Origin: Levilactobacillus bambusae
GTDB taxonomy: Bacteria; Bacillota; Bacilli; Lactobacillales; Lactobacillaceae
Reading direction: 5' to 3'
Assembly (NCBI RefSeq): GCF_003124125.1
Contig: NZ_QCXQ01000002.1
Coordinates: 1 to 64,000, forward strand
DNA: 64,000 bases
A model generated the notes under the pieces. The model was not told the DNA's origin and did not search any database. It saw only the letters and a program-made list of their open reading frames with translations. Position numbers and translations under genes: made by a program. This document shows positions 32,724 through 48,151 of this stretch, piece by piece. The number at the start of each line of letters is the position of its first letter. Position 1 is the first letter of the stretch.

Positions 32724-33731
32724 CTATTTTGTGATAGTAAGCGGATTCAAGGTTAAAATTTGTTCCATATTTAAAAGCAATCGCCGGGTAAAGTAACCTC
32801 GTCTTAGTAGACGGCCAAATTTTTGTACCTGCAATTGACAGCGAGACATCTCACTATCACTAACAGATGAAATCAAGCCGTCAATTTCGCTAATCGAGGA
32901 CAACGCATACCCCAGGTAATTATCCTGAACTAGCTGAGCGATAGCGGCCTCTTTCCACACAATGACGGGCATCCCAAGGGCAAGGTACATCGCCACTTTA
33001 TAGGGATTATTATAACGAGTGTAAGCCCCAAAATCGTCCCCTGTATCCCAGGCCAGCCCGAACCCGTTCGGCAGCGTTTCCTCTAACAAACTGGCACCTA
33101 AAGCCCCATGGTATTCCACGTTCATTGCGGGCTGTTGACCATTGTTCAGTCCAAACGCAATGAGCGGGGTTTGTTGATTCCACGTGCTCAACAGGTTGGA
33201 CTTAACAAATGAACCCGCTATTACTACTTCCCGCTGAACTGGTTCCGTCTTAAAGGCCGTATCCGTCAGGTAATCCCAGCAGTCTTGCACCACAATTGGC
33301 GTGGTTACGCCATCCATTTTCATTTGCTGACGCATATTTACCGTAGGAGCAATAATTCCTGCTACTAAATTTAAGTGGCGGATTTCATCAAAACCGGGGT
33401 TAATCCCATGTCGCAATCGTTCGTAGTCGTGTACCATTAACACCACTTGAACTCCCCGGTACACAAGGTGTTCAGCAAATGATACCTCAAATTGGTTTCC
33501 GTTATACGAGGGGTACTGGTAAACCACTAAGTCTCCGGCCCGTATGCTTCCCGTCATTCCCTCAATTCTAGCGCCCAGTTCCGCCATGGTTTCTCTAGAC
33601 CGGTCGTACCGGTGAACGTCTAAGTAACGATATCCCGCCGCGTTGTGGGCAATCCGGGCAAAATCAGCTTTGGCCTTCGTTGTGGCATCTAATGAGGTGC
33701 CCTCTATAATTCTAGTAACCCACTTCGTCAT
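32724..33731 (-). CDS. Gtf3-like glycosyltransferase of the SRRP glycosylation locus (copy 2)
   Basis: A 335-residue GT-B fold protein related to the Gtf3/Nss family of accessory Sec loci, which adds a sugar to GlcNAc on the serine-rich adhesin. Visible family features: DLVVYQYPSYNG, MVHDYERLRHG, a Gly-rich central strand (EVVIAGSFVKSN), FGLAWDTGDDFGAY and the YNNPYKVAMYLALGMPVIVWKEAAIA donor-site region (here cited in parts: YNNPYKVAMYLA, MPVIVWKEAA). Start ATG 33731, AAGGAG 7 bases upstream; it overlaps the previous gene by 20 bases. It is the last gene of the cluster and is paralogous to the gene at 47087-48151. Confidence 0.8.
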   Translation of the reverse strand: MTKWVTRIIEGTSLDATTKAKADFARIAHNAAGYRYLDVHRYDRSRETMAELGARIEGMTGSIRAGDLVVYQYPSYNGNQFEVSFAEHLVYRGVQVVLMVHDYERLRHGINPGFDEIRHLNLVAGIIAPTVNMRQQMKMDGVTTPIVVQDCWDYLTDTAFKTEPVQREVVIAGSFVKSNLLSTWNQQTPLIAFGLNNGQQPAMNVEYHGALGASLLEETLPNGFGLAWDTGDDFGAYTRYNNPYKVAMYLALGMPVIVWKEAAIAQLVQDNYLGYALSSISEIDGLISSVSDSEMSRCQLQVQKFGRLLRRGYFTRRLLLNMEQILTLNPLTITK

Positions 33732-34632
33732 CACCGCTCTCCTTCCTTACCAGCCAGCCGCCTTGTATACAAATTAACGGTTTTTGTGTCACTAACCGTC
33801 CGTGAATCAGGCGATCTGAAAATCCCTCGTAGATCACTTCATTGAAGGCAGCCAGTGTTATTTTATCTGGCGTTAGGCGATTCAAAAGCGCACTACTTAA
33901 TTCAAGCAAAATGGCTCGATCACCGATCAAGACCGTTCTCAGAAGTTTCTGGACACGTTGCCCATTGCCAAGTGTCCCAATCTCTAATTGATCGTCTAAG
34001 TAAATTCGATTGGCTTTAACATGAGGAAAGGGATCCATTAACAACGTATAGTTTGAGTCAACAATGGCTAGTCGGTTTACTTCTGGATGGGCAAATAGTT
34101 CCCAGTAAAGGGATAACCAACCTAACCGGGTATCTAAGTCAGCGTCAAACTTGATTCCCGATAGGCCAAGATCAGACATAGACCTCATAAGCGGAGATTC
34201 TGATCCTCCGCCAAGTTGAATAACCAAGTCTACCCGTTCTTTAGTTAATGCATTGCCAAGGTTCATCTGAATGGGTTCGGGAGCTAGTACTTGGTTACGA
34301 ATTGAATCCGTAGTTACCCTGTATTCATAGGTATCCTTCCCGTTCACCTGTCGCATCATTACCCGATTGCCATAACCCTTAGGTTTCTCGAACCGTTCGA
34401 CAACGGTCCCCTCTAAGTTTAGTAGTTCAATAATTTGTTGCGTCTCATTAAATCGCCAACACCGACTGGCTGGCCAAAATTTCATATTGGACTCACTGCT
34501 GAGTTCACCGTTTTCCAGGAATTCAATTGCTAGCACTCCTCCGTTTTTTCCCATTTTAACCCGTTGAATTCCATTAGCCATAAAAATCCACTCGTGGCCC
34601 TTTAGCTGCCGATAAATTCCCTGACTATCCAT
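33712..34632 (-). CDS. Cassette protein B': beta-module plus degenerate glycosyltransferase-like domain
   Basis: A 306-residue protein. Residues 1-95 form a strand-rich module (HEWIFMANGIQRVKMG, GVLAIEFLENGELSS, CWRFNETQQIIELLN) shared with the gene at 35367-36218. Residues about 130-300 resemble the GT-like proteins of the A type: HPEVNRLAIVDSNYTLLMDP and IYLDDQLE, RLIHGRLVT. At the place where the A protein has TDLGDVE this one has VDSNYTL, so only the first Asp is kept and the C-terminal SxxWFK end is absent. It is probably non-catalytic or altered, perhaps a partner subunit. It follows A' by 9 bases. Confidence 0.6.
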   Translation of the reverse strand: MDSQGIYRQLKGHEWIFMANGIQRVKMGKNGGVLAIEFLENGELSSESNMKFWPASRCWRFNETQQIIELLNLEGTVVERFEKPKGYGNRVMMRQVNGKDTYEYRVTTDSIRNQVLAPEPIQMNLGNALTKERVDLVIQLGGGSESPLMRSMSDLGLSGIKFDADLDTRLGWLSLYWELFAHPEVNRLAIVDSNYTLLMDPFPHVKANRIYLDDQLEIGTLGNGQRVQKLLRTVLIGDRAILLELSSALLNRLTPDKITLAAFNEVIYEGFSDRLIHGRLVTQKPLICIQGGWLVRKESGDDEVGY

Positions 34633-34641
34633 TTCAACCTC

Positions 34642-35370
34642 CTACTGAAGTTTAAACCAGGCATTGGTCTCATGTTGGTTAAACGACATGATTGACGTTA
34701 CTAAGCGCCCGTGCCCCAACCGCTGAGTAAAGTACCGATACAAAACGTAGTTAAAAAGACTGAGATCCGTTAAATTATTAATTTGATCCGCTGTCATGGT
34801 CCGCTTTAACGTAATTAATCCGCTAAGTAGTTCTAAGACAATGCCGCGTTCACCCGCAATCACTGCTGGATTCAGCGTTTGCAGACGTGAATTATGCACA
34901 ATAAATGAATTCACTTCGGGGATTGTCTGGGTCAACAACTGCAAATCTTCTAGTTCATTTAGTTCATCTGCGACATACAGACAATCGGCATCCATCTCTG
35001 GAAACGGATTTTGATTTAGCGTAACCGTTGCTGCATCGACCATGGCTACCCGTTCAACTTCTGGATGCCGGTGCAGCATCCAATAGGCCCACGTCCACTT
35101 ATCCGAGGTAGGCTGGGAACCATCATCCTTGCTTTCACACTGGTATAAGCCCGGCCATTGACTTTGAATCTTAACATTTGTCCGAAGGTACAGGGGCAAC
35201 GTCCAGCGTGTCACCGAATCAGCTAACCGGGAGCCAGTACGCTGAATTTGTTCGTCCTGTTCTGACGACTTCGATAGGGCCTCACTGAGTATAATTTCTC
35301 GCTGTACCGCTGCATGCGGGATAAAACTAACGGGTGCCTGCTGTAACTTAAAAATTGATTCCAATGTCAT
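34642..35370 (-). CDS. Cassette protein A': glycosyltransferase-like protein
   Basis: A 242-residue protein, paralogue of the gene at 36228-36968. Shared features in order: HPEVERVAMVDAATVTLNQN (metal-site strand, one Asp kept, second changed to Thr), NPFPEMDADCLYVADEL, LNPAVIAGERGIVLELLSGL, FNYVLYRYFTQRLGHGRLVT and the end NAWFKLQ. The fold is likely GT-A, with activity uncertain because the Asp pair is incomplete. The start ATG overlaps the stop of the preceding gene by 4 bases (ATGA). It is inside the SRRP glycosylation operon, so a role in extending the SRRP glycan is inferred. Confidence 0.6.
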   Translation of the reverse strand: MTLESIFKLQQAPVSFIPHAAVQREIILSEALSKSSEQDEQIQRTGSRLADSVTRWTLPLYLRTNVKIQSQWPGLYQCESKDDGSQPTSDKWTWAYWMLHRHPEVERVAMVDAATVTLNQNPFPEMDADCLYVADELNELEDLQLLTQTIPEVNSFIVHNSRLQTLNPAVIAGERGIVLELLSGLITLKRTMTADQINNLTDLSLFNYVLYRYFTQRLGHGRLVTSIMSFNQHETNAWFKLQ

Positions 35371-36218
35371 CGTGGCAATTTCCCCCCTTTGTTGACAACC
35401 TGCGTTCGATTCATAAATTGTTCCTGAATGACGTTGCGCAGTTCTCCTAGCGCAGTCTGCGGAGTACCCGCTAATTGATCAACCCGGCTGCGAAATAAAA
35501 CTTCTCCCGATAGTTCCATTAACATTGAACGACTCCCGATTAACCCCTGCAAGTGCTTATCGGACGCTTCCACCAGTCCCAGCTTTACCTTGGGTGAACT
35601 CATTAACTCATACGTTGTTAAGGCTATTTCATGGGTTATAATCCCCACCCGGTTGACATAACTATGTTCGGACAGCCACCAATAAATAGTTTGCCAATAG
35701 TCGAAGTTTGCTGTATTGGCTTGGACCGGTACGATGGTTATCCCATCTTGTTCCGGCTGATCTGCCCAGGTTGAAATAGTCTCAGCTTGTGATGACTGTT
35801 CTACCCGAATCAGAATCGCAGCTTGTGATTCCATTGTAACGGCTGGAGGGGACGCCAAAATAGGGGCAGGTGCCCATCGATCGTTAATGGTTCGTTCCAT
35901 CACTGTGGAACTATAAAATTTATCCTTGCTGGTTGTATCCATAAGTATTAGTGATTGATCTTCCCACACCGGTGGCTGGTACACAGCTTGAACTTGCTGA
36001 TTCGCATCTAAAAAATTGATTAATTGGCGTTCATTATCCCAAGTCCAGGCCTTCAAGTTGGGTAAAAAGCCCATTTTAGAGGGGTAGCTTAGATACCCCT
36101 CTTCCTGAAACTCAATGGCTAATATGCCGACCCCTCCCATAATGACATTCTGATGACCGTTTTTAGAGAATTTCCACCAGTGACCCTGTACAGTATCAAA
36201 AAAAGCGTTGCGATTCAT
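35367..36218 (-). CDS. Cassette protein B: beta-module plus degenerate glycosyltransferase-like domain
   Basis: A 283-residue protein with the same N-terminal module as the gene at 33712-34632 (GHWWKFSKNGHQNVIMG, GILAIEFQEEGYLSY, AWTWDNERQLINFLD). The C-terminal part keeps the general outline of the A proteins (WLSEHSYVNRVGIITHEIAL, SRSMLMELSG) but has lost all Asp residues at the metal site and the HGR-V end. It is therefore probably not a transferase on its own. GGGGG lies 5 bases before the ATG. It overlaps A' by 4 bases, which argues for coupled translation and a complex with an A protein. Confidence 0.6.
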   Translation of the reverse strand: MNRNAFFDTVQGHWWKFSKNGHQNVIMGGVGILAIEFQEEGYLSYPSKMGFLPNLKAWTWDNERQLINFLDANQQVQAVYQPPVWEDQSLILMDTTSKDKFYSSTVMERTINDRWAPAPILASPPAVTMESQAAILIRVEQSSQAETISTWADQPEQDGITIVPVQANTANFDYWQTIYWWLSEHSYVNRVGIITHEIALTTYELMSSPKVKLGLVEASDKHLQGLIGSRSMLMELSGEVLFRSRVDQLAGTPQTALGELRNVIQEQFMNRTQVVNKGGKLPR

Positions 36219-36227
36219 GTGTACCCC

Positions 36228-36968
36228 CTACTTATGTTTAAACCAGGATCGTGAATCCGATCGGTTAAAAAAGAAAATGGTTGAAACTTGGCGGCCATGC
36301 CGCAATCGCGTCGGAAAATAACGATAGGCTACGTAGTTGACCATTCCCATTTCATACGCCCGTAATTCAGAGCCGTCATTAACTAAATGCTGATAGATCT
36401 GCTCCACCACTAAGTTAGCCATTAGTCCCAAAAACTCTAAAACTTCGGCTCGGTAACCACCAATCACTCCGGGGTTTAAAAGTTGAACGTGCTGATTAGC
36501 TCGAAGAAATTGATTAACCTGATCTGGCATGGTCCCCTGAAAAACAATGTCGATGGCGAGATCAGTAAATTCATCACCCAGGTAAAGTCGGCCTGGTTTC
36601 ATTTGACCAAACGGATTATTTAACATTTCAACATCGCCTAAATCCGTTAAAACCACTTCCGTAATCTCAGCATGGGCCGCCAAAAACCGATAAGCCATTA
36701 TCCAGCGCAAGAAGTATAGGGACACATTCTGAAAGACTTCGAGCCCGTTAACCTGAGTCAGGACTAAGTCGGGAGTGTTATAGGTAAGATCATCGTTCGT
36801 TAAAACGTACACCGGTACACCAAAGGGCTTAGTTGACTCAACTAACCGACTAGCTTTTGGAAGCACCGAATCCGACGTTAAGACGGTTCCACCCCGCTGA
36901 GTATCCGTTTTTCCTGAGATAAATTCCGTTAAAATAAGTCGGTTTGGCGCCCGTTTAACTCCTGCCAT
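36228..36968 (-). CDS. Cassette protein A: putative GT-A type glycosyltransferase
   Basis: A 246-residue protein from the ATG at 36968, chosen for GGAGG 6 bases upstream. It is the best preserved of four related genes here. Motifs: an N-terminal strand NRLILTEFISGKTD, a substrate loop, the acidic metal-site strand VVLTDLGDVEMLNNPF, GRLYLGDEF, LLNPGVIGGYRAEVLEF, MGMVNYVAYRYFPTRLRHGR, QVSTIFFF and the end SRSWFKHK. The D-x-x-D pattern after a hydrophobic strand, and the NPG-IGG and HGR loops, are as in GT-A enzymes. It overlaps the gtfB-like gene by 14 bases. I do not recognise a named family. Confidence 0.65.
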   Translation of the reverse strand: MAGVKRAPNRLILTEFISGKTDTQRGGTVLTSDSVLPKASRLVESTKPFGVPVYVLTNDDLTYNTPDLVLTQVNGLEVFQNVSLYFLRWIMAYRFLAAHAEITEVVLTDLGDVEMLNNPFGQMKPGRLYLGDEFTDLAIDIVFQGTMPDQVNQFLRANQHVQLLNPGVIGGYRAEVLEFLGLMANLVVEQIYQHLVNDGSELRAYEMGMVNYVAYRYFPTRLRHGRQVSTIFFFNRSDSRSWFKHK

Positions 36969-37827
36969 TCTCCCCCTCCGTTTCAATAAGAATTTTAGTC
37001 ATGGGCTGGTGTGCTTTTAGAAGCTGGTCCGCCAACTTCTGTGGGAGCGCAACATGCTGAACGTACGGTAACCGATTGTCAAGAATCGCCTTTAAATTGC
37101 CCCGAACCTCGCCCTGTTCATCCAGTGGCGATTCGATCAGTGCTAAAGTATTATCCGACTGGGTTTGGGATAGGGCCGTTAACTCAAGGCCAAGATACGA
37201 AATAACAGCTGCGTCATCCGCTTGAATAATTTCACCCACCTTAGCAGCTAAAAAAGCTCCTGTACTATCGTAGCGCTCCAAAATTCGGTGGGAGGCTGGA
37301 TCCTCAACAGTAATGAGGTTCATCTGCCCGTTATAAAAGTAGTAAGTCAAAACCACAACTTGATCATCGTTATAGAATTGAATTCGTTGGACATGATTAT
37401 CGTCATAGTCAATCCGGCTAAAGAGCTTGCCGTCAAACGCATACTCCTCAATAAAATCCCGGGTTCCATCCAAATTCAGGTAGGTAATATTATTTACTAA
37501 CCGGCGAGTATTCGGGTACAATCGGACGGTTCCAATAGGGTACCCATCATGAATTAAGTTAATTTGACCGGACTTTGCCATAAAAATTTCAGCACCCGCA
37601 ACGGTTGGAATCTGATCAAAAAAGAGGAATTGGTCGGGATTATAAGTTCGGTTTGTCACGTAATCAACCACGTTAACAACGTTAATTTGTTCCTGAATCT
37701 GCTTCTGCAAAAGGCCCGGATCCGGTGCGAGCGTTAACAATGTCCCGTTTATTCGCTGTAACCGCGCTTTTTGGGCCGTCCAATCTGTAGTATCAGGATG
37801 CAGCACATTTAGAACCTCATAGTTCAT
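36955..37827 (-). CDS. gtfB: Short GtfB-like co-activator of SRRP glycosylation
   Basis: A 290-residue protein matching the N-terminal half of accessory Sec GtfB: QFLFFDQIP, AEIFMAKSGQINLIHDG, RRLVNNITYLNLDG, IDYDDNHVQRIQFY and TYYFYNGQMNLI form the extended beta-sheet that grips the unglycosylated serine-rich substrate. GtfB joins GtfA as the non-catalytic subunit of the first O-GlcNAc transferase. Streptococcal GtfB is about 440 residues; here the C-terminal second Rossmann domain is missing and the protein ends in a short Gln/Glu-rich tail. It overlaps gtfA by 11 bases and gene A by 14 bases, so the short form looks native. Confidence 0.75.
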   Translation of the reverse strand: MNYEVLNVLHPDTTDWTAQKARLQRINGTLLTLAPDPGLLQKQIQEQINVVNVVDYVTNRTYNPDQFLFFDQIPTVAGAEIFMAKSGQINLIHDGYPIGTVRLYPNTRRLVNNITYLNLDGTRDFIEEYAFDGKLFSRIDYDDNHVQRIQFYNDDQVVVLTYYFYNGQMNLITVEDPASHRILERYDSTGAFLAAKVGEIIQADDAAVISYLGLELTALSQTQSDNTLALIESPLDEQGEVRGNLKAILDNRLPYVQHVALPQKLADQLLKAHQPMTKILIETEGENGRS

Positions 37828-39259
37828 GAATTAAACGCCTCCATTTTTCTGCGATAACGTGATCCTGATAGTCCGTGACGGACTCAACAACTTGTCGTTG
37901 CAAAGCCGGGTAATCCTGAACGGCCACTAGCTGTTCAATTCCTAACGTCAATTGTTCAACGTTAAAGGCCTCATCATCCCGCTTAAAGGGTCGTAAAAAG
38001 CCGTTTACCCCGTCGTGAACCAGTTCAATGGCCCCAAATCGGGCATTAAACGTAATCACTGGCAGGGCAGCACTCATTGCCTCAATGTATGTCAACCCAA
38101 ACCCCTCAGAATAAGAGGCTGAAATAAAGGCGTCGTAGTGCGGGTATTCGGCTTCTGGCTGTTTGGTTAGCCCCTTCAGTTCAATGTATTCCCGGGCGTC
38201 CTCCCGCTGAATCAAATCGTTTAACTTTGATCGGGTTTCTCCCTGACCAAAGATATCCAACGTAACAGCATGCCCCGCCCGATGTAACTTGACTACCGCT
38301 TGAACGATTAAATCAATATGTTTTTCCGTGGCTAACCGAGATATCGTCACTAACTTAACTGGGTGCATCAAGGTATGCGTCTCAATAGCGTCCACGTGAT
38401 CATTAACCCCACCAACCGGAATGGTAACAATCTTATCCGCTTCGGTTGGAAAATCTTGCAGCAGGTCCTGACGCTGCATCTCAGTTGCAACCACTAACCG
38501 ATCAATCTGATTTAAATGGGTGAGCACATATTCATAGTAGTTATTCCATAGTGGCGCACTCAAAACATTGCGGTCCGATAGATGATCGGCATGTACGACA
38601 TCAACCTTATGCCAATCGGCCACTGGATCGTCAAAAAGTGCGACTTCATTATCCTCGCCTCGGTCAACGATAAACGTGTTCTGTCCCCCGTAAAGTCGGT
38701 TCAGTTGGTGAAAGAAATACCGCTTCAGTAAAACCATATTCTGAAAGTATAGGTGCTGATCGTTAGCTTGATGGTAAAGGTGGATATTTGTAATCTGACT
38801 CTCTGTTCCAACAACCCTCTTTCGGTACGAAACCATTAACTGACCGGTCCAAATATTAAACAGTTCAACTCGGTCAGTACTGACCAAGAGGGTTTCGGGC
38901 TTGTCAGGATTAGGCTTTTTAACGTAGAATTCCCGGATTCGCAGGCCTGAAGTCGTTCGAGCCTCGGACATCCGGTTTGTTTTTGTCTGGTCAACCAGCA
39001 TCCGAAATTCAGCGGTACTACGCCGCGTCAAACCCGATACCGCATAGTCCTCCCCCAAAACGAAGTATTCCCACATGTTGATGACTTGGTCATCCTTGAT
39101 CTGCCAAACATCCATGGCTTCATGCAAATTCTTAATCAATTCTACAAAGATGAATCGGTATGGCAGATTCGCCTGATCAAACCGTTTGGCTCGGTAAAAT
39201 TGCGCGTGTTCTACCCCGGAATTTCCCACACCCATTGCTTGGTTTACAAAAAAATTCAA
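37817..39259 (-). CDS. gtfA: Accessory Sec system glycosyltransferase GtfA
   Basis: A 480-residue GT4 enzyme that adds the first GlcNAc to Ser/Thr of the serine-rich repeat protein. It opens with MNFFVNQAMGVGNSGVEHAQ (Gly loop for donor binding), followed by a strand-rich insertion (about 55-200) that forms the substrate-binding sheet, and the GT-B donor domain with TISRLATEKHI, DIFGQGETRSKL and SEGFGLTYIEAMSA (EX7E). The ATG overlaps the asp3 stop by 4 bases and the gtfB start overlaps its end by 11 bases. Confidence 0.9.
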   Translation of the reverse strand: MNFFVNQAMGVGNSGVEHAQFYRAKRFDQANLPYRFIFVELIKNLHEAMDVWQIKDDQVINMWEYFVLGEDYAVSGLTRRSTAEFRMLVDQTKTNRMSEARTTSGLRIREFYVKKPNPDKPETLLVSTDRVELFNIWTGQLMVSYRKRVVGTESQITNIHLYHQANDQHLYFQNMVLLKRYFFHQLNRLYGGQNTFIVDRGEDNEVALFDDPVADWHKVDVVHADHLSDRNVLSAPLWNNYYEYVLTHLNQIDRLVVATEMQRQDLLQDFPTEADKIVTIPVGGVNDHVDAIETHTLMHPVKLVTISRLATEKHIDLIVQAVVKLHRAGHAVTLDIFGQGETRSKLNDLIQREDAREYIELKGLTKQPEAEYPHYDAFISASYSEGFGLTYIEAMSAALPVITFNARFGAIELVHDGVNGFLRPFKRDDEAFNVEQLTLGIEQLVAVQDYPALQRQVVESVTDYQDHVIAEKWRRLIHEL

Positions 39260-40044
39260 TTCGTATTGCTCCCTTCAGGTGAAGATTGGTTAAAAAATCT
39301 AAAGTGCCGTTCAAATTCAACGAGTCCCCTGTGAACCCGGTCTGAGGTGCCAAAGGTTTGAATCTGAATTGGCGTTTTTGCCTTAACCCCCGTCTGTCGC
39401 AGCAATTGGATTATCTCAACAACATCCGTCGCTTCTAATCCAGGATTAGATAAGATGAGGAGGACATTATTTTTGTTCGGCAATAACGGACAAGTTGTCG
39501 TTTCCATCGACTGGGCTAAAATCGTAATCGTCCACGCTGTCGTGGTTGGCTGCTTGGCTAATAGGACTTGATTACCACTGGAAAGGCGTAAATGGCGAAT
39601 ATCAGCAACGTTGGGAGCCTGATGAATTACTAACCATAGTCCCCGAAAGATCATCCGTTGATTATTAAGATTCACTAGTTCGATTCGGTAGGAAGCTGCT
39701 GATGCCGGATAATCAAATTGACCCTTTAACTCCACATAGTTCTCCTGTTGAATGAGGATGTCGTCCTGGTCAAAAAATGTGACCTGCATGTGAACGGACC
39801 CAACCGGCTTAGCCTCGATATCTAATTGATATCCGTAGGTGGTTCCCGGCGTTAAAAGGGGTAATTCCGCAGATGCCCGGTCATAAAAGAAGTTTAACTT
39901 TGACCTCCACGTATGAATAACCGACCCTGGTGATTGACGAGGATTCAGATAAAGCACTTGGTTATCCTTCATTTTCAGCTGTGTCCCAAATGGATAGGTC
40001 GTTCCCGTATTCAATCCCCAGTGTACTAAATATGCGCTTGTCAT
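39256..40044 (-). CDS. asp3: Accessory Sec system protein Asp3
   Basis: A 262-residue protein with the Asp3 signature: an N-terminal VHWGLNTGTTYPFGT, NFFYDRASAELPLL, and a jelly-roll-like carbohydrate-binding fold (YGYQLDIEAKPVGSVHMQVTF, cited in parts: YGYQLDIEA, VHMQVTFFD). In the known system Asp1-Asp2-Asp3 form a complex that binds the glycosylated preprotein and couples it to SecA2. The C-terminal 90 residues (LLPNKNNVLLILSNPG onward) are longer than in many streptococcal Asp3 proteins. RBS GAGGCAG before the ATG. 14 bases after asp2. Confidence 0.85.
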   Translation of the reverse strand: MTSAYLVHWGLNTGTTYPFGTQLKMKDNQVLYLNPRQSPGSVIHTWRSKLNFFYDRASAELPLLTPGTTYGYQLDIEAKPVGSVHMQVTFFDQDDILIQQENYVELKGQFDYPASAASYRIELVNLNNQRMIFRGLWLVIHQAPNVADIRHLRLSSGNQVLLAKQPTTTAWTITILAQSMETTTCPLLPNKNNVLLILSNPGLEATDVVEIIQLLRQTGVKAKTPIQIQTFGTSDRVHRGLVEFERHFRFFNQSSPEGSNTN

Positions 40045-40058
40045 CCTCTGCCTCCTAA

Positions 40059-41627
40059 TTAATCAAAATGCCGGTTAAAGTACTGTGTTAAAACACGCTG
40101 ATACTGTGAAATGAACCATTTGACCACCTCGTTGGTTTGGTCGTTGTGCCGGCCAATTAATCCCTTATGGATAACCGGCGCACCCGGAAAGTTTTGAATC
40201 AAATAGTCATTTAGGACTTGAAATGCATTTTGATCATAATCATCATCCTTCATGTAGACGATATCAAACTGGGTCCTCGAAAAATCTCCCGTTTTAAACT
40301 TACGCCAGAAGATTTGATTTGCCCGTTGAATATCCTCATCAGTCGTTCCCCCCGTCCAACTCAACAGCATATCCAACGAAACATCGAAGTCATCCGGGCG
40401 CTTAATTCTGGAGTTCGCAGCAATGGTTCCCAAATGAATTAGAGGTTTTCCAACAATGACGGCAATTGGTTTGAGATCGGCTGCATAGTACAGGGCAGCG
40501 AACGATCCCATGGAAAGACCAGATAAGATTAAATCGTGCGGGTCAAACTTAAGCTCCGCTAACCGTTCATGGATATACTTAGGAATACTAGCTTCTAGCT
40601 CCTTGCTACCCACGTAAAAGTCGCCTCCCACAAGTCGTGGGTCATTAATCAGTACATATGGCGCCTCTAAGCGACTCATCATAAATTGGCCTTCAAATCC
40701 CTCATTGGGCCGATATCCCGAAAAATAAACGTTTAGGGGTGGTTGGCGGTCCCCAGCATTAAAGTAGAAAATAAGTTCTTGGTTGAGATGCCGATCTAAA
40801 ATCTGATTTTCACCGCCAATCATCATAAAACCATGCTGACCATGGGACCGGCGCAAATGGACGGGGCCAATGGTAATATCACCGGTTCCTCGGCCAAATA
40901 CACTTAGTGAAACATTCGTATTCTCAGTGATAGGTGGCAACACGGTAGTTTGATGCAGCTGATCCCCCTTAATTACCAGAGTTTGATGGTGATTGCTCTG
41001 GGTGGCATCTAAGTGAATGTGATACTCGATCTCAGTTTGATCATCGCTAACATCGCATTCGGGCATTAACTCCCACTGCGCCGGAACTTGGGCTTCAAAA
41101 AGCCGACTAGTAAAACTACCTAACCACTGAAGTTTCGTATCTGACACCCCGTGAAAAATTAATTGAGTGGCTCCCCGTTGTTCAATCTCGGTCACTAATT
41201 CAGCTGCATATTGAAAATCACGGGTGTGAAATAAGAACCCCGCCTGCCCCTGAAAAAAATTGAGGTTAAGTTCTCTAGCAAGCTCCGCTGGAACTTGAAA
41301 GGAAAGGTAACGAACATTTTGCAGCCTCAACAAGGCCCGATCGGACTCATTCACGGCTACTCGATCATCTATTACCACACTATTAGCGGGAAACTTCGCC
41401 ACTAATTCTAATTGGTTAACCACTTTGGAATCAGCGGGAATTAAAAACCGAGCCTGATCATATTGTGAATTTAATTTGCCACCTAAAAAAAGGCCGGCCT
41501 CATTTTCTGTTTCGGATAAAACCTCCTGATCAGAAAAGTACACGACGGTTTGATCTTCTGGCAGCCAGTCGGCCAGGTGAAGGGGTTGACCACCTAGTTG
41601 AATTAAAATTGGATTGCTAATCGCCAT
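40059..41627 (-). CDS. asp2: Accessory Sec system protein Asp2 (O-acetyltransferase/hydrolase fold)
   Basis: A 522-residue protein. The C-terminal half is an alpha/beta hydrolase: nucleophile elbow LSGLSMGSFAALYYA (Ser near residue 371), an acidic residue in YMKDDDYDQN and the His in IGRHNDQTNE complete a possible triad. In S. gordonii Asp2 acetylates GlcNAc on the adhesin and is needed for export. The N-terminal half is strand-rich. The ATG overlaps asp1 by 11 bases. Family assignment is supported by order (asp1-asp2-asp3) and by the hydrolase motif. Confidence 0.87.
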   Translation of the reverse strand: MAISNPILIQLGGQPLHLADWLPEDQTVVYFSDQEVLSETENEAGLFLGGKLNSQYDQARFLIPADSKVVNQLELVAKFPANSVVIDDRVAVNESDRALLRLQNVRYLSFQVPAELARELNLNFFQGQAGFLFHTRDFQYAAELVTEIEQRGATQLIFHGVSDTKLQWLGSFTSRLFEAQVPAQWELMPECDVSDDQTEIEYHIHLDATQSNHHQTLVIKGDQLHQTTVLPPITENTNVSLSVFGRGTGDITIGPVHLRRSHGQHGFMMIGGENQILDRHLNQELIFYFNAGDRQPPLNVYFSGYRPNEGFEGQFMMSRLEAPYVLINDPRLVGGDFYVGSKELEASIPKYIHERLAELKFDPHDLILSGLSMGSFAALYYAADLKPIAVIVGKPLIHLGTIAANSRIKRPDDFDVSLDMLLSWTGGTTDEDIQRANQIFWRKFKTGDFSRTQFDIVYMKDDDYDQNAFQVLNDYLIQNFPGAPVIHKGLIGRHNDQTNEVVKWFISQYQRVLTQYFNRHFD

Positions 41628-43206
41628 TTAAGCTTTCCTCCCAAAATGCCAGTATTTGGTCACTCGTAAACGTTGGTATAAGCTGGACATTAGCCACTAG
41701 GGCTTCATTCCAGACGTTTAACTGACTGATATACATAGCAATCGACTCCTTAAGTTGGCTTTCCGTTTGAACGAGCCGTCCGTTTTGCCCCGGTTGTAAG
41801 TAGGGAGTTTTTACTCGATTCAGCTGGGGGACCCCGGCACTAATGGCCGCCACCTGAAGATATGTCACCGGCGATTCACTTAGATCGATGAGCAGCCGGG
41901 CTTGCCCCATTTCGGATTGAGCCCGACTTTTCGTTAACTTCGGCTCCAAGTGAAACTTAGCCAACTCAGCATATAAGGGCCCCAATTGGTCCTGCCACAG
42001 TTTCTCATCCGTTTCAGATAGGGTTTCCTGAATTGCCATGGCCGTATGATAGAGATCCGGCCACTGATCTGAATTGAATAAGACATTCGTCAATTCGGCC
42101 GTTTCAAACCAATCGGCTATGGGGTAATTCTGACGGATACGGGAGATGATCAGCTTGGCTAGCTGTTGGGTTTGCTGATCACTGCAGTTCACGACCGTCA
42201 GCTGCCCCTGAAACTGATGAATGCTTAAATCCATTGTGTCAAATTGCCAGGCCAGTTCAGTACTTTCTAGCTGTCCCACCGACCAAATAATTTTCTGAGT
42301 GGCCGATGCAGCACTGTTGCCTAACCTCAGGTCTGTGGCATACGGGTACCCAATTCGAGCCCTTTCACTCACTGACTGCCCAAACCTATCGCGGAGCTGG
42401 ATAATCTCCTGGTTGCCCGCTACAAAAATTTGATGGGCGCCCATAAATAATGCGGCCATGGTCGGATCCTGTACTTGGTTAGCTGTCACTAGCAGGTTTA
42501 CAGGTACCAAGCGTTGTAAATCAACTAGCACTGCCGCATTTTGCTGACTCGGATTAGCTATAAAGTGAACGACGGCTTTTCTAGCCTTAAGTTTCGTCAC
42601 ATGCCGGATCATCACTTCCGTTAAAACGGCCTCTAAATCTGGATAGTTTCCCCGTTCAAACCGTGATTTTGCAATGGGCTGAACTAAAAGCTGCCTCTGA
42701 TTCCCCTCTAAGACAACATGTCCATATTCATCAAACCATTTTTGGGTGAGAACCTTTTCTTGCTGATCCAACATCCTCTCAACCAGTATAAAACCACGTT
42801 CATCGTAATCCTGAACCTGCTTTAATCCACCGTTCCAATTCGTTTCTACCCGGGTAACAAGCCCCATTTCATTAACAAAAATTTGTTTCACTAATTCATC
42901 GTCGACCATAACGTCCGCACCGCTAATCGTTTGGATGAGTTCAGCTTGATGCGGAAGCGGTACATCTGATAAACCAAGGCCCCGTCCCTCAGTGATTTTA
43001 ATCCCTAATGCGTGATCTAAAACATCCCACGTTGGAAACCCCAGCAGATCATTTCGGTTCAAGAACAGCCGCAAATCAGATTGATGATGAACCGTTAATA
43101 GCTGAACTTCACGTTCGTTATCGCGCATTAAACGTGCCAAACTAATCATGGCCTCATTTGGGGCGTAGTCAGGCTGCGTGTGTTCTCCAGGAACCAACAC
43201 TAACAT
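41617..43206 (-). CDS. asp1: Accessory Sec system protein Asp1
   Basis: A 529-residue protein of GT-B-like fold without catalytic residues. The N-terminus MLVLVPGEHTQPDYAPNEAM is followed by strand units (QDYDERGFILVERMLD, QKWFDEYGHVVLEGNQR) like the extended sheet of GtfA/GtfB. Near the C-terminus, QARLLIDLSESPVTYLQ and AAISAGVPQLNRVKTPYL match Asp1 proteins. It acts with Asp2 and Asp3 in directing the glycosylated adhesin to SecA2. It starts 17 bases after secY2. Confidence 0.87.
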   Translation of the reverse strand: MLVLVPGEHTQPDYAPNEAMISLARLMRDNEREVQLLTVHHQSDLRLFLNRNDLLGFPTWDVLDHALGIKITEGRGLGLSDVPLPHQAELIQTISGADVMVDDELVKQIFVNEMGLVTRVETNWNGGLKQVQDYDERGFILVERMLDQQEKVLTQKWFDEYGHVVLEGNQRQLLVQPIAKSRFERGNYPDLEAVLTEVMIRHVTKLKARKAVVHFIANPSQQNAAVLVDLQRLVPVNLLVTANQVQDPTMAALFMGAHQIFVAGNQEIIQLRDRFGQSVSERARIGYPYATDLRLGNSAASATQKIIWSVGQLESTELAWQFDTMDLSIHQFQGQLTVVNCSDQQTQQLAKLIISRIRQNYPIADWFETAELTNVLFNSDQWPDLYHTAMAIQETLSETDEKLWQDQLGPLYAELAKFHLEPKLTKSRAQSEMGQARLLIDLSESPVTYLQVAAISAGVPQLNRVKTPYLQPGQNGRLVQTESQLKESIAMYISQLNVWNEALVANVQLIPTFTSDQILAFWEESLNGD

Positions 43207-43222
43207 TTCTAATCATCTCTCC

Positions 43223-44422
43223 TCACAGCAGTTCGTAATGGCTGCTAACGTATAGGGCCCGAAACTGTTCAATCACGTTATCCAAAATCGTCACAACCAT
43301 GTATAGACTTGAAAAATAGTAGGAAAATAAACTTGCAACTGGTAGCCACAGTCCAACGACTAATGGAAGGCAGCTAATGGTCACTAAATACAAGTTAGCT
43401 ACGACATCAATCCGATGCACGTGCTGATTTAAAAATTGCTCGGTTGCTTCACCAGGCATGACACCCAAGAAATAATCACCATTTTTATTCATGTCCTCCG
43501 CAATCTGATGCGGCATTAGGTTCATATAGCTAAAGAGGTTGCCCAACAAGATAATGATCAGTGCATATAGTAAGATGCCCTGCCAGTGCCGAGTTGAGAA
43601 CCAGACCTGAATAACTTGTTCCCCGTTTGGGATATCCCAATGACTGATAACGAGTCGAAGAAGCGAAAAGACGACTAAGCCAAACATTAGTGGCATTGCA
43701 CCAGGCAACAGTACTTTGATCGGCAGATAGGCCGTAGTCAGTGAGTTGTCCGTCATTAATTGCTGAATGGGGAGTCGTAATTCAGCATGGTTAAAAAACT
43801 CCGTCACCGCCATAAAAAATAGGGTCGCCACAATCAAAATAATCACGTTTGGAACCGACATTGTGTAGGCCGTCCCCGTTTTCTGTCCGGAAAAGGTCTG
43901 GATACTGGAGGCCAGGATACCAGGTACGATCATAATGCCTAGTCCCCCAAAACCAAATATCCGGTTTAGGTCCGACAACCAAGTAACCAACATTGCTCCC
44001 GCAACTAAGACAAGAACCGAACTTGCCATGATCATCTCTGCGTTCATAGTTCCACGGGGAGTTATCCAATTCCTCATCATACTGACCATTTGAGCCGCCT
44101 GCAAAATAGCAAAGACTAAAACCATAAGCCGTTGCATAACCATCGTTTGATCCGGCGTCCATTTTTTTCCAATCCCTAGTGCCCGTAACGCTGAAAAAAG
44201 AATGAGCGTGACCATATACGGTCCCATCCCAATGGAAAATAGCGTTGGTTTTGCGTATTGAGCTCCCGTGATCGTGGTATAAACCTGTAATAACGGATTC
44301 GTATGCAGGAGGCTCTGCGCTCGCCCGGGATCTAACTGGGGAATTAACACTTGTTGTCCTAACTGTAAAACGACCAGTACCAGCACGGTAAATCCAATCT
44401 TTTTATAAAACTGTTTTGTCAC
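43223..44422 (-). CDS. secY2: Accessory Sec translocase channel SecY2
   Basis: A 399-residue membrane protein with ten predicted segments. SecY family traits: the plug region after segment 1, SIGMGPYMVTLILFSALRALG, and GIMIVPGILASSI with conserved Gly/Pro. It is shorter and more divergent than a housekeeping SecY (about 430-440), as known for SecY2. It forms the dedicated membrane pore for the serine-rich adhesin. It follows secA2 by 17 bases and precedes asp1. Confidence 0.9.
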   Translation of the reverse strand: MTKQFYKKIGFTVLVLVVLQLGQQVLIPQLDPGRAQSLLHTNPLLQVYTTITGAQYAKPTLFSIGMGPYMVTLILFSALRALGIGKKWTPDQTMVMQRLMVLVFAILQAAQMVSMMRNWITPRGTMNAEMIMASSVLVLVAGAMLVTWLSDLNRIFGFGGLGIMIVPGILASSIQTFSGQKTGTAYTMSVPNVIILIVATLFFMAVTEFFNHAELRLPIQQLMTDNSLTTAYLPIKVLLPGAMPLMFGLVVFSLLRLVISHWDIPNGEQVIQVWFSTRHWQGILLYALIIILLGNLFSYMNLMPHQIAEDMNKNGDYFLGVMPGEATEQFLNQHVHRIDVVANLYLVTISCLPLVVGLWLPVASLFSYYFSSLYMVVTILDNVIEQFRALYVSSHYELL

Positions 44423-44439: not shown

Positions 44440-46812
44440 CTACGGAAATTCAATTTCAAACGACCCATCTGGATTTTCATGAAGGCTTGAGAGGACTATA
44501 TTTTGAACCGCTAAACGCCAAAATAGTGTCTTCATATGATTAAACCCCGAAACGGCTTCTAATTGGTACGTCGCCATCGGATCGTGTTGCCCCACCGATC
44601 GAGTACTTGTAATCGCCCGTAACTGATGTAAATTGTCAACCTGTTCAATCCAGGCATTGTCTAAAGCGTGTAAAATAGTAAGGCGTAAATAATATTCTTG
44701 TTGGTCCCTTCCCGCTAATTGCCCCATCTTATTGGTTAATTGCTGATGTACACGTTGCAAAATAGCCGTTTTTAGCTGCTCAGGATGCCCCATTAACTGG
44801 GTAAATTGATCATTAACAATGAAATTATAGTCGATGGTATTCGTCATAAAGTTCAGTACCGAGCTTAGCGTTAAATTGGGTTGGCTAAGCAGTTGCTTAA
44901 CCGCCTTAACAGCAACCTGATCTGCAACCTGGAGTAATTTCGCTAATGGCATAACCATTAATTGGTTGCGAAACTGATAGATTGCATTTTGTTGGGTTCT
45001 AAGCACGTTATCATAAGCGACAGACGACTGCCGACCGTTTTTCCCCTGACTGGCTGCCCGCTTTTGGGCTCTACTAACCACCTTTTTCAATCGGCGGTTA
45101 GTAATGGGAAATCCTTCTGATCGCTTACCGGCCTGTTCCTCTGCCAATAGTCGTTGCTGATCCTTACCGATTTTTTGAGGACCGTGTTCAATTATTACGC
45201 GATCATCTAAGGCAACGTAGAACTTGGTTAATCCAGGATCACCCTGTCGTCCAGCGCGGCCCCGCAATTGATTATCCACCCGGCGGCTCGTCATCCGTTC
45301 AGTCCCAATCACTAAAAGGCCGCCAGTTGCGGCTGCACCAGGTCCAAGCTTAATGTCTGTCCCACGACCCGCCATGGAAGTTGCAACCGTTACAGCGCCC
45401 ATTTGACCCGCATCCTTAATTATGGCAGCTTCCCGAGCCGCATTTTTTGCATTCAAGACGTTATGAGCAATTCCATTTTGAAGCAGCAACAGGGAATAAA
45501 GTTCTGAAAGTGACACAGATCCCGTCTCAATCAGTACGGGCTGCCCCCGATCATGTGCTTCCTGAATCCCGGCCAACGATGCATAGAGCTTTTCTTCGTT
45601 GTTAACATAAAGTTCATCCGGTAAGTCTATTCGGACGTTAGGTTTATGGGGTGATACCGTAAGAACTCGTAAATCATACGTATCTAAAAATTCCCGCCGA
45701 TCCGTTGCTGCCGTTCCCGTCATTCCCGCTAAGTGAGGAAACATCCGGAAAAGATTTTGGTAGGTTACGGAAGCCATCGTCCGATTCTGGGCACTCAGTG
45801 GGAGCCCCTCTTTAGCTTCTAGTGCTTGATGCATTCCCGCCTCAAGATGCATCCCAGGTAGAGTGCGTCCATCCTGAATGTCCAGAAGCAAAAGTTGGTT
45901 TTCACTAACCACATAGTCCCGGTTAACTGTAAATAGGGTATTCGCTCGGAGCGCCAATTGTAAATGCCGATACAAATCAACCCCTCGCTCATCAAGCAGG
46001 TTCTCAACCCCAAAGTACGCTGATAGCCTTTGAATTCCAACCGGTGTAAACCAAACTTGCTTACGATCCTCACTCATTTCATAGTCCTGATCCCGAGTTA
46101 ACGTTTTAACCACCCGATCCGAGGTCTCAAACAGGTTTGATTGAACTTTTGGAGCACCCGCAATGACTAACGGTGTTTGCGCCATGTCTAATAGAACGGA
46201 ATCAACTTCATCAACGAGTGCATACCGAAAATGGCTCAAAGCTTTTTGAGAGTCGTCCGCTACTAAATTATCCAGTAAGTAGTCAAACCCGAGGTTATTG
46301 TATGTTGTATAGACGATGTCTGCCCGGTAAATTTCTGCTTTATCAACGGATTGAGCGGTAGTCTCGGTCCGAGCCATACTGGTTAATCCCAACCAGTGAT
46401 AAACCTGCCCCATTTCTTCGGCGTCCCGTTGAGCTAAATAATCGTTACTAGTGACTAAAAAAGCCCCCGGACCAGCTAAACCGTTTAAATACATAGGCAT
46501 TGTTGCCGTCAATGTTTTTCCTTCACCAGTTGCCATTTCCGCAATATTGCGCCCATTTAAAATCGTGGCTCCTAACACCTGATTGGCATATGGAAAAAGG
46601 CCGAGGACCCGGCGATCTGCTTCTCGAACGGTAGCGTAAGCCTCAACGAGTAGCTGAGATAATGACTCGCCATGACTCATCCGGTTACGAAACTCCCCCG
46701 TCTTACCTTTCAGCTGTTCATCTGACAATTGGGTGTAATTATCTTCTAAAGCCAGTATTGACGTCGCCATGCGTTGATATTTTTTTAATTGCCAGTGATT
46801 CCAATTCACCAT
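44440..46812 (-). CDS. secA2: Accessory Sec translocase ATPase SecA2
   Basis: A 790-residue motor ATPase dedicated to the serine-rich adhesin. NBD1 has Walker A MATGEGKTLTA (near residue 97), the Walker B region ALVDEVDSVLLD, and HLAGMTGTA; NBD2 has TSMAGRGTDIKLGPG and QLRGRAGRQGDPG. The C-terminal zinc-binding tail of housekeeping SecA is absent, and the protein is shorter, as expected for SecA2. The start is uncertain by one codon: AGGA lies 3 bases before the ATG and 6 bases before the following GTG. The upstream region also carries a promoter for a rightward gene. Confidence 0.94.
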   Translation of the reverse strand: MVNWNHWQLKKYQRMATSILALEDNYTQLSDEQLKGKTGEFRNRMSHGESLSQLLVEAYATVREADRRVLGLFPYANQVLGATILNGRNIAEMATGEGKTLTATMPMYLNGLAGPGAFLVTSNDYLAQRDAEEMGQVYHWLGLTSMARTETTAQSVDKAEIYRADIVYTTYNNLGFDYLLDNLVADDSQKALSHFRYALVDEVDSVLLDMAQTPLVIAGAPKVQSNLFETSDRVVKTLTRDQDYEMSEDRKQVWFTPVGIQRLSAYFGVENLLDERGVDLYRHLQLALRANTLFTVNRDYVVSENQLLLLDIQDGRTLPGMHLEAGMHQALEAKEGLPLSAQNRTMASVTYQNLFRMFPHLAGMTGTAATDRREFLDTYDLRVLTVSPHKPNVRIDLPDELYVNNEEKLYASLAGIQEAHDRGQPVLIETGSVSLSELYSLLLLQNGIAHNVLNAKNAAREAAIIKDAGQMGAVTVATSMAGRGTDIKLGPGAAATGGLLVIGTERMTSRRVDNQLRGRAGRQGDPGLTKFYVALDDRVIIEHGPQKIGKDQQRLLAEEQAGKRSEGFPITNRRLKKVVSRAQKRAASQGKNGRQSSVAYDNVLRTQQNAIYQFRNQLMVMPLAKLLQVADQVAVKAVKQLLSQPNLTLSSVLNFMTNTIDYNFIVNDQFTQLMGHPEQLKTAILQRVHQQLTNKMGQLAGRDQQEYYLRLTILHALDNAWIEQVDNLHQLRAITSTRSVGQHDPMATYQLEAVSGFNHMKTLFWRLAVQNIVLSSLHENPDGSFEIEFP

Positions 46813-47086: not shown

Positions 47087-48151
47087 CTAAAGTATTTTTA
47101 AATCGGCCAGAACTAATCGGCCCTGCATTTCTAATACTGCCCGTTTAAGGAAGTATCCAGATCGAACCAAAATTCCAATATTTGCCGTGGCCTTTAAAAT
47201 TTCTTGATATTCGGTCTCAGTCAATTTGGCCAGTCGATCTGGCAGCTCGCTGAGATTCTTAATCACCAGCCCAATCCGATTCCGTGTTACAAATTCTGCT
47301 TCGGCGGCCTGATCCCACACAATAACGGGTTCATTTGCTGCCAAGTACATCGATAATTTATTGGGACTGTTGAACCGTTCATACTCCCCGTAGTTACCCT
47401 CAACCTCTGGATAGTCGGTTGAATCCCACACTAAGCCAAAACTTCCCTGTAGGATATGGCTAATGGCCTCTGGATCATAGGATCCCTGGATTTCCATTCC
47501 TTCGGCTACTTCAAAGGCATCATCTACGTTGGCGTAAATATTCATGGGCTGATGGCGAGCTAATTCGACTAAAAATGGTGCCTTGTGTAAACCACCTGCG
47601 TAATCAATTGGATCAGTAACGTGACGGTCTTTTGAATCAAACAGGGTCGTTACGTACCCGGCAAGACCCCGGATCACAATCGGATATTCAGGGGGTAAAT
47701 GCCACTGTCGCCGAATCTGATCGGCCATTTGATTCGTATGAGCAATAATGCCATCTCCCTCAGTAAATAGTGGCTCATCACTGGGCGTGTGATAATCCCC
47801 CTTCGTTTGCCAGAGAGGTGAAATATCTTGGACATAGGCGACAACGTAGGCCCCAATTTGATGAATTTTCTGAATAATAAGGCGTTGGGTTTCCAACGAA
47901 AATAGTAATGGATACTGGATAATAACGATATCCTGTCGTTTTAACCCGCTAAAAATTCCGTCAAAACGTGCGGATCGGTGGCTAATGTCTTCCCCTTTAT
48001 CGGAATAAACAAAGAAATCAATAATGCGCCCATTCATTTCCTGAATATAAGTGAGGTTGTCTGCTTGAGACTTACCGGATGCCCCTTGATCCCAGCCACT
48101 AAAAAAAGTCTCCTGAAAGTTACCGTTACGTTTGGTCATATAAATCGTCAT
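47087..48151 (-). CDS. Gtf3-like glycosyltransferase of the SRRP glycosylation locus (copy 1)
   Basis: A 354-residue GT-B protein of the Gtf3/Nss family. Features: a Gly/Ser-rich N-terminal loop (SGWDQGASGKSQADN), IVIIQYPLLFSLE, a central loop (DYAGGLHKAPFLVELA), GSFGLVWDSTDYPEVEGNY, RFNSPNKLSMYLAANEPV and VWDQAAEAEFV. In streptococci Gtf3 transfers glucose to the GlcNAc placed by GtfA/GtfB; the sugar used here is unknown. AGGAGG lies 9 bases before the ATG. It is the first gene after the SRRP, with a hairpin between them, and is paralogous to the last gene of the cluster. Confidence 0.83.
   Translation of the reverse strand: MTIYMTKRNGNFQETFFSGWDQGASGKSQADNLTYIQEMNGRIIDFFVYSDKGEDISHRSARFDGIFSGLKRQDIVIIQYPLLFSLETQRLIIQKIHQIGAYVVAYVQDISPLWQTKGDYHTPSDEPLFTEGDGIIAHTNQMADQIRRQWHLPPEYPIVIRGLAGYVTTLFDSKDRHVTDPIDYAGGLHKAPFLVELARHQPMNIYANVDDAFEVAEGMEIQGSYDPEAISHILQGSFGLVWDSTDYPEVEGNYGEYERFNSPNKLSMYLAANEPVIVWDQAAEAEFVTRNRIGLVIKNLSELPDRLAKLTETEYQEILKATANIGILVRSGYFLKRAVLEMQGRLVLADLKIL

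Follow-up and report, generated by a model that had tools for sequence, protein, structure and literature searches.

A duplicated gene pair in an adhesin glycosylation locus of Levilactobacillus bambusae encodes a candidate glycosyltransferase and predicted pseudoenzyme partners

The first 64,000 nucleotides of contig NZ_QCXQ01000002.1 of Levilactobacillus bambusae (hereafter the window) carry a serine-rich repeat protein (SRRP) adhesin locus, and within it four consecutive minus-strand genes, called here A, B, A' and B', that make up a duplicated two-gene cassette. By profile comparison, A is the C-terminal domain of a phage glycosyltransferase family, phrog_1579, a link that is new here. Among the four genes, A alone keeps the complete set of conserved motif residues. 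The kinship of the genes, their order, the co-occurrence of A and B, the loss and retention of residues and the match to phrog_1579 are all directly supported. We lean towards the reading that A and B are the two parts of a glycosyltransferase that extends the adhesin glycan, and that A'-B' is a non-catalytic duplicate of the pair.

Results

Four related genes alternate in type

A sequence-only reading of the window, made without database searches, had described a duplicated A-B-A'-B' cassette in an SRRP locus. The four open reading frames were recovered at the positions it gave (Table 1), and A and A', like B and B', proved to be paralogues. In BLASTP comparisons of single sequences, A matched A' (31% identity over 249 columns, E 2e-34), B matched B' (26%, E 2e-27) and A' matched B' (37% over 145 residues, E 2e-21). 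A was also related to B' (E 3e-9) and, weakly, A' to B (E 0.002); the match of A to B was not significant (E 1.1). Alignment of family profiles with hhalign gave A versus B a probability of 94.8% and an E-value of 5e-8. In a rerun with trimmed alignments the probability was 90.9% and the score 49.7, the highest of 40 column-shuffled controls being 16.0; A versus B' scored 147.4 (column-shuffled controls at most 23.2). Because the profile scores exceed those of shuffled controls, we accept, despite the non-significant BLASTP result, that B is homologous to A at the profile level. The proposal that B and B' join a common N-terminal module to a degraded A domain is also supported.

The genes are closely packed, as had been remarked: B and A' share 4 bases, A overlaps the end of the GtfB-like gene by 14 bases, and B' overlaps the next Gtf3-like gene by 23 bases. 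A starts with an ATG at 36968, preceded by GGAGGGGG, and an alternative TTG lies further upstream at 36986. A purine-rich element precedes the start of each of the four genes. The C-termini read WFKHK in A and WFKLQ in A'. Foreign base composition was considered and rejected, the four genes having 44.4-46.1% G+C and the window 45.6%. So was a defence function, since no PADLOC match was obtained for A, B, A' or B' at E up to 0.01.

The A domain is shared with phage proteins

Window A matches the PHROG family phrog_1579 ("glycosyltransferase") with an E-value of 2.9e-38 over profile positions 252-482 of 482, that is, over its C-terminal half, and the family was matched by all 30 A proteins scanned (alignment A4). 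In phrog_1579 proteins, for instance those of Mycobacterium phages Bipolar, Sparky and Rita, A aligns to the C-terminal half with about 25-38% identity, and the same D..D, N.G and H-K residues are found. The phage proteins differ in carrying an N-terminal half of the family-2 glycosyltransferase (GT2) type, whereas A consists of one domain and has B as its partner gene; lacking the GT2-type half, A (246 amino acids, aa) does not belong to phrog_1579 as a whole. When four phage-type proteins were scanned over their full length, PF00535 (family-2 glycosyltransferases) matched N-terminal to the A domain in each of them, in two at or above the Pfam cut-off and in two below. Relatives of A were detected by tblastn in 372 of 50,697 phage records, 339 of them named Mycobacterium, and in 11 of 72,556 plasmid records. 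Most of the phage proteins bearing the domain are annotated as glycosyltransferases. Beside the phrog_1579-type genes in stretches L072-L079, profile searches detected no B-type gene. The last of these stretches, the only plasmid region inspected, comes from the Enterobacter plasmid record NZ_AP025933.1; its phrog_1579-type gene is in the neighbourhood of genes for holin, lysozyme, terminase and the major capsid protein, and the record looks like a phage-plasmid.

A passage of one paper (PMC11256854), citing others, reports glycosylated capsid proteins in phages Che8 and Rita, and an excerpt of another (PMC12363180) names Che8 gp110 as a capsid glycosylation gene. Rita carries an A-type domain by tblastn. 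Che8 gp108, gp109 and gp110 do not match A, so that Che8 provides no direct evidence for the A domain.

Searches of other libraries returned matches that were set aside as lying below the Pfam cut-offs: Hydrolase_6 for window A (0.067) and Retrotran_gag_3 for window B (0.088); 11 Pfam families among the 30 A proteins, with one or two members each and a best E-value of 0.0076; and DUF6734 (0.00046) and DUF2158 (0.0011) in one of seven phage-type domains. A and B' had no PDB match by phmmer, and PDB profile searches gave a best E-value of 0.22 for alignment A5 and no match for alignment A12.

Motif residues are kept in A and lost in A', B and B'

Residues were counted in 32 of the 35 A genes (one short gene, one bearing a stop and one long frame outside the alignment were left out) and in eight phage-type domains, among them the near-identical L073 and L074; for the B-type rows, alignments by MAFFT and by hmmalign were compared. 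D109, D112, N165, G167 and K246 are invariant in all 32 A proteins and all eight phage-type domains, and H245 is kept in 31 of the 32 and in all eight. The DxxD site is found, among the cassette genes, in A only. All four A' proteins have lost D112, G167, H245 and K246, and two have lost N165; D109 is retained in three. One of six B'-type proteins has D109, one or two (according to the alignment program) have D112, and none has H245. The 22 B proteins have no D at position 109 or 112 in either alignment, and their C-terminal tail is missing or unaligned. These counts fit the earlier description of an acidic metal site intact in A, partial in A' and B', and absent in B.

Other conserved positions persist: H99 in four of four A' and five of six B', and G171 in all four A' and all six B'. 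Such a combination of motif loss with retention of other residues is, at the level of sequence, the pattern expected of pseudoenzymes and not of plain decay. Since only A keeps the motif set, each cassette would encode one candidate enzyme and three predicted pseudoenzymes.

A and B occur together, mostly in genomes with accessory Sec genes

Of 397 genomes of the family (Lactobacillaceae), 13 contain A according to its profile. At the order level three of 395 genomes were positive, all three in that family, and at the phylum level one of 149, namely the window's own. Carriers include Lactobacillus selangorensis DSM 13344, Secundilactobacillus odoratitofui DSM 19909, Pediococcus acidilactici DSM 20284 and Lactobacillus sp. 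ESL0701. The B module, searched without its A domain, was found in 11 of the 397 genomes, all of them within the 13 that have A (Fisher test, 9e-20, a value that ignores kinship and rests on a module profile built from B genes adjoining A). The remaining two A genomes are G404, whose A gene has an internal stop, and G256, in which module and A form one reading frame (L060, 862-2256, 464 aa). The latter has two repeats ahead of A, 25% identical to each other (E 1.3e-6), that resemble the B module weakly (9.5 bits and E 1.3e-4 for the second in a three-sequence search, 2.9 bits for the first), and it adjoins an adhesin start with a KxYKxGKxW-type motif, recognised by eye.

In 20 stretches, B lies downstream of A or A' on the same strand in 34 of 39 cases, and in 31 of these 34 the genes overlap or are separated by at most 26 bases. 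Asp2 is found in 12 of the 13 A genomes (G256 below the cut-off), versus 116 of the 397 overall (p 2.5e-6); in the 13th, G295, SecA2 stands beside the pair at a contig end. The claims that A and B go together and that they are linked to SRRP loci are thus upheld. They need not adjoin gtfA/gtfB: several pairs lie elsewhere, some of them beside DUF285 genes. A or B genes adjoin DUF285 surface-protein genes in Pediococcus and in genome G169.

In P. acidilactici and a relative (L052, L055, L056), arrays of A and B genes lie near surface proteins; one of these proteins (L052:6485-8629) contains DUF285 repeats and resembles metallopeptidases weakly, with no match reaching the cut-off. A scan of genome contigs found no relative with a single protein and, with an alignment, five loci through one peptide pattern, so that no frequency was drawn from it.

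The duplication probably predates the split of the loci

Four cassettes of the A-B-A'-B' type were found, three in the window's genome (contigs C10, C21 and C35) and one in L. selangorensis, and the arrangement is intact in all of them. Between cassettes, A', B and B' of the window are only about 26-42% identical to the corresponding genes. In a tree of the A domains, the four A' cluster (support 88), and so do the four A from these loci (97). Because A' and A of the four loci separate in this way, the duplication, judging from the tree, probably preceded the divergence of the loci. The tree also places A' with B'-type domains (96% in the Shimodaira-Hasegawa-like approximate likelihood ratio test, SH-aLRT) and not with A, a grouping that was set aside because both have long branches. 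The tree does not include the strongly decayed B domains or many of the A genes in arrays, and the B-type domains of the single-pair loci L059 and L062, which fall with B', were assigned to B' by hand.

The cassette on C21 belongs to a second accessory Sec locus of the window's genome (L014), and the one on C35 lies at the start of that contig (L015). The L. selangorensis region (L016, 1881-13459) contains six Gtf3-like frames. In one of them (L016:3746-5557) the Gtf3-like part is joined to a GT-D (PF08759) domain, and by eye the C-terminal ends of four others resemble one another.

The surrounding adhesin and accessory Sec locus

Read from right to left on the minus strand, the locus runs from the adhesin through a Gtf3/GtfC-like gene, SecA2, SecY2, Asp1, Asp2, Asp3, GtfA and a short GtfB to A, B, A' and B', and ends with a second Gtf3-like gene (Table 1). 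Its identity as an adhesin/accessory Sec locus was established with the NCBIfam models, of which those for SecA2, Asp1, Asp2 and Asp3 pass their cut-offs, while SecY2, GtfA and GtfB are recognisable below theirs. The adhesin contains 113 exact copies of the eight-residue repeat SVSDSEST, in a long run (residues 426 to 1585). On the opposite, plus strand, a 1234-aa frame that overlaps the adhesin gene (48941-52645) is probably a by-product of these repeats. The GtfB-like match is limited to positions 46-248 of the 438-position TIGR02919 model, about half of it, and GtfB is short elsewhere too (281-301 aa in stretches L014, L016 and L018).

Table 1. Genes of the cassette and of the surrounding locus in the window.
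Feature	Coordinates	Strand	Remarks
Gtf3-like glycosyltransferase after B'	32724-33734	-	PRK09814 family 7.3e-54, below equivalog cut-off
B'	33712-34632	-	B paralogue; better kept A domain without most motif residues; predicted non-catalytic
A'	34642-35370	-	A paralogue without D112, G167, H245, K246; predicted non-catalytic
B	35367-36218	-	N-terminal module (about residues 1-115) and strongly degraded A domain; predicted pseudoenzyme partner
A	36228-36968	-	246 aa; candidate catalytic subunit; homologous to phrog_1579 C-terminal domain
Short GtfB-like protein, 290 aa	36955-37827	-	TIGR02919 weak, 7e-6, 25 bits (cut-off 338.3); overlaps A start
GtfA-like glycosyltransferase	37817-39259	-	TIGR02918 5.9e-73, 246 bits, below curated cut-off 574.6
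Asp3	39256-40044	-	TIGR03711 103 bits, above cut-off
Asp2	40059-41627	-	TIGR03712 424 bits, above cut-off
Asp1	41617-43206	-	TIGR03713 178.6 bits, above cut-off
SecY2-like translocon gene	43223-44422	-	TIGR02920 194 bits, below cut-off 249.6; best family SecY2
SecA2	44440-46812	-	TIGR03714 958.9 bits, above cut-off
Second Gtf3/GtfC-like glycosyltransferase	47087-48151	-	PRK09814 family 5.9e-46, below cut-off
Serine-rich repeat adhesin, 1860 aa	48271-53853	-	KxYKxGKxW signal, Ig-like domains, LPQTG anchor

Discussion

In the reading we favour, A would be the catalytic, metal-dependent subunit that transfers the sugar, and B, made of the module and a pseudo-A domain, a non-catalytic partner that binds the acceptor, stabilises A, or both. 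The A-B complex would work in the cytosol on the serine-rich repeat adhesin once GtfA/GtfB has placed the first sugar; with the Gtf3-like enzymes it would lengthen the glycan before SecA2/SecY2/Asp1-3 export the protein. We infer the sugar transfer, the binding of A to B, the substrate and this order of steps. The A'-B' pair would have arisen by tandem duplication of the pair, losing catalytic residues and keeping other conserved ones, and would probably supply extra binding or scaffold subunits, or a pair that sets acceptor specificity.

Such a design is that of GtfA/GtfB, the initiating O-linked N-acetylglucosamine (GlcNAc) transferase of adhesins, described in a passage of PMC6973325 as a catalytic and a chaperone subunit. 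According to excerpts of PMC6973325 and PMC6291802, it puts GlcNAc on Ser/Thr in related loci, where GtfC-type enzymes extend it. The likeness lies in two adjacent genes of the same locus, one with and one without a catalytic site; going by sequence only, A and B are a predicted catalytic and a predicted non-catalytic subunit encoded side by side. No kinship with GtfA/GtfB was detected: A, B, A' and B' have no NCBIfam match, TIGR02918 and TIGR02919 included, at E up to 1, and the idea that the B module is an add-on domain of GtfA/GtfB was rejected, as it has no profile match to window-type GtfA or GtfB. Loci of this kind also encode Gtf3/GtfC and GT-D (DUF1792) enzymes, which lengthen the glycan from its GlcNAc core (passages of PMC6973325 and of PMC6291802), but these have no sequence match to A or B, and the Gtf3-like genes here are separate (Table 1). 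Open-licence literature on SRRP glycosyltransferases and pseudoenzymes contained, among the matches listed, no title on such a pair.

Several results weigh against this reading. None of the four proteins reaches a Pfam or NCBIfam cut-off, which bears out the earlier remark that they are unnamed, although A does have a described relative in phrog_1579. The PDB profile matches are weak and short (best E-value 0.05 for A, 0.5 for B and 0.023 for the module). With hhalign, A scored 12.9 against GT8 (PF01501), where the shuffle median was 13.5, and 14.1 against the phage GT2 half, where shuffles gave 13.7. Assignment of A to GT8, whose motif order appears similar by eye, or to any other named glycosyltransferase family was rejected, for want of a Pfam or NCBIfam match at cut-off and of a profile signal above shuffles. 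The name of phrog_1579 may derive from its GT2 half, so that sugar transfer is no more than predicted for the A domain itself. The order of D..D, N.G and H-K in A resembles that of GT-A enzymes with a C-terminal metal-binding His; given the lack of profile similarity to GT8 or the phage GT2 half, "GT-A-like" is a guess from motif order. Little weight is given to the B rows, since G171 was counted in 21 of 22 B proteins by MAFFT and in 6 of 22 (15 gaps) by hmmalign, the alignment of B to A being uncertain. Five of the 39 A or A' genes have no B behind them (the fusion, the stop-bearing gene, one of 187 residues at an array end, and the full-length L050:10176 and L057:8073). Finally, some A-B pairs stand away from the accessory Sec genes, and the adhesin may for this reason not be the only substrate. 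The A or B genes that adjoin DUF285 surface-protein genes suggest that further surface proteins can be targets as well.

Part of this evidence could be accommodated if A, as a catalytic subunit, modified the adhesin or its glycan in another way, by some other metal-dependent group transfer, with B as a targeting partner. The absence of similarity to any glycosyltransferase family in Pfam, NCBIfam, PDB profiles or the hhalign comparisons with GT8 and GT2, and the doubtful origin of the phrog_1579 name, speak for it. We consider it unlikely, as the domain sits in phage proteins mostly annotated as glycosyltransferases, lies here in a glycosylation locus, and shows a motif order like that of GT-A enzymes. 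Pairs that are isolated or adjoin DUF285 surface-protein genes, at a distance from gtfA/gtfB, would also suit an initiating role, in which A-B would put the first sugar straight onto Ser/Thr of surface proteins and GtfA/GtfB would act on other sites or substrates. This appears rather improbable: the place of the domain in phage proteins, C-terminal to a distinct half of GT2 type, hints at a later step, and gtfA/gtfB directly precede A in the window.

For A' and B', the sequence-only reading had proposed a second heteromeric transferase. Its observation of the cassette is confirmed and its interpretation partly supported; this part of it is not supported by the residues counted above, the loss of four motif residues in every A' and of H245 in all six B'-type proteins making a second active enzyme unlikely. 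A' and B' might still use a different, metal-independent site to add another sugar. They remain open frames, diverged from A and B, in all four cassettes, and three of four A' retain D109. Against the losses just named, and with D109 and D112 nearly gone from the B'-type proteins, we think this quite improbable. That the whole cassette is decaying and mostly non-functional is hardly credible. Motif residues are lost from B, A' and B', A of G404 contains a stop and a few frames are short, but open frames, ribosome-binding elements and overlaps are kept, and the non-motif residues H99 (in A') and G171 (in A' and B') persist at the low identity seen between cassettes.

Beyond an A-B pair extending the adhesin glycan, with a non-catalytic A'-B', the data leave room for a wider proposal, which we put forward tentatively. 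These genes may represent a second, independently evolved class of enzyme-plus-pseudoenzyme protein glycosyltransferases for adhesins, built from a catalytic domain shared with phages and a module-bearing dead copy of it as partner, in which duplication would have yielded one catalytic and three pseudoenzyme chains setting acceptor specificity. If so, adhesin glycosylation loci would have evolved the design of a catalytic and a non-catalytic partner twice, from different domains, and the A domain, common to the phage records and bacterial adhesin loci, would become a testable enzyme. The pair adds a candidate glycosyltransferase family for which no Pfam, NCBIfam or PDB representative was found, with a defined set of residues on which its activity could be tested.

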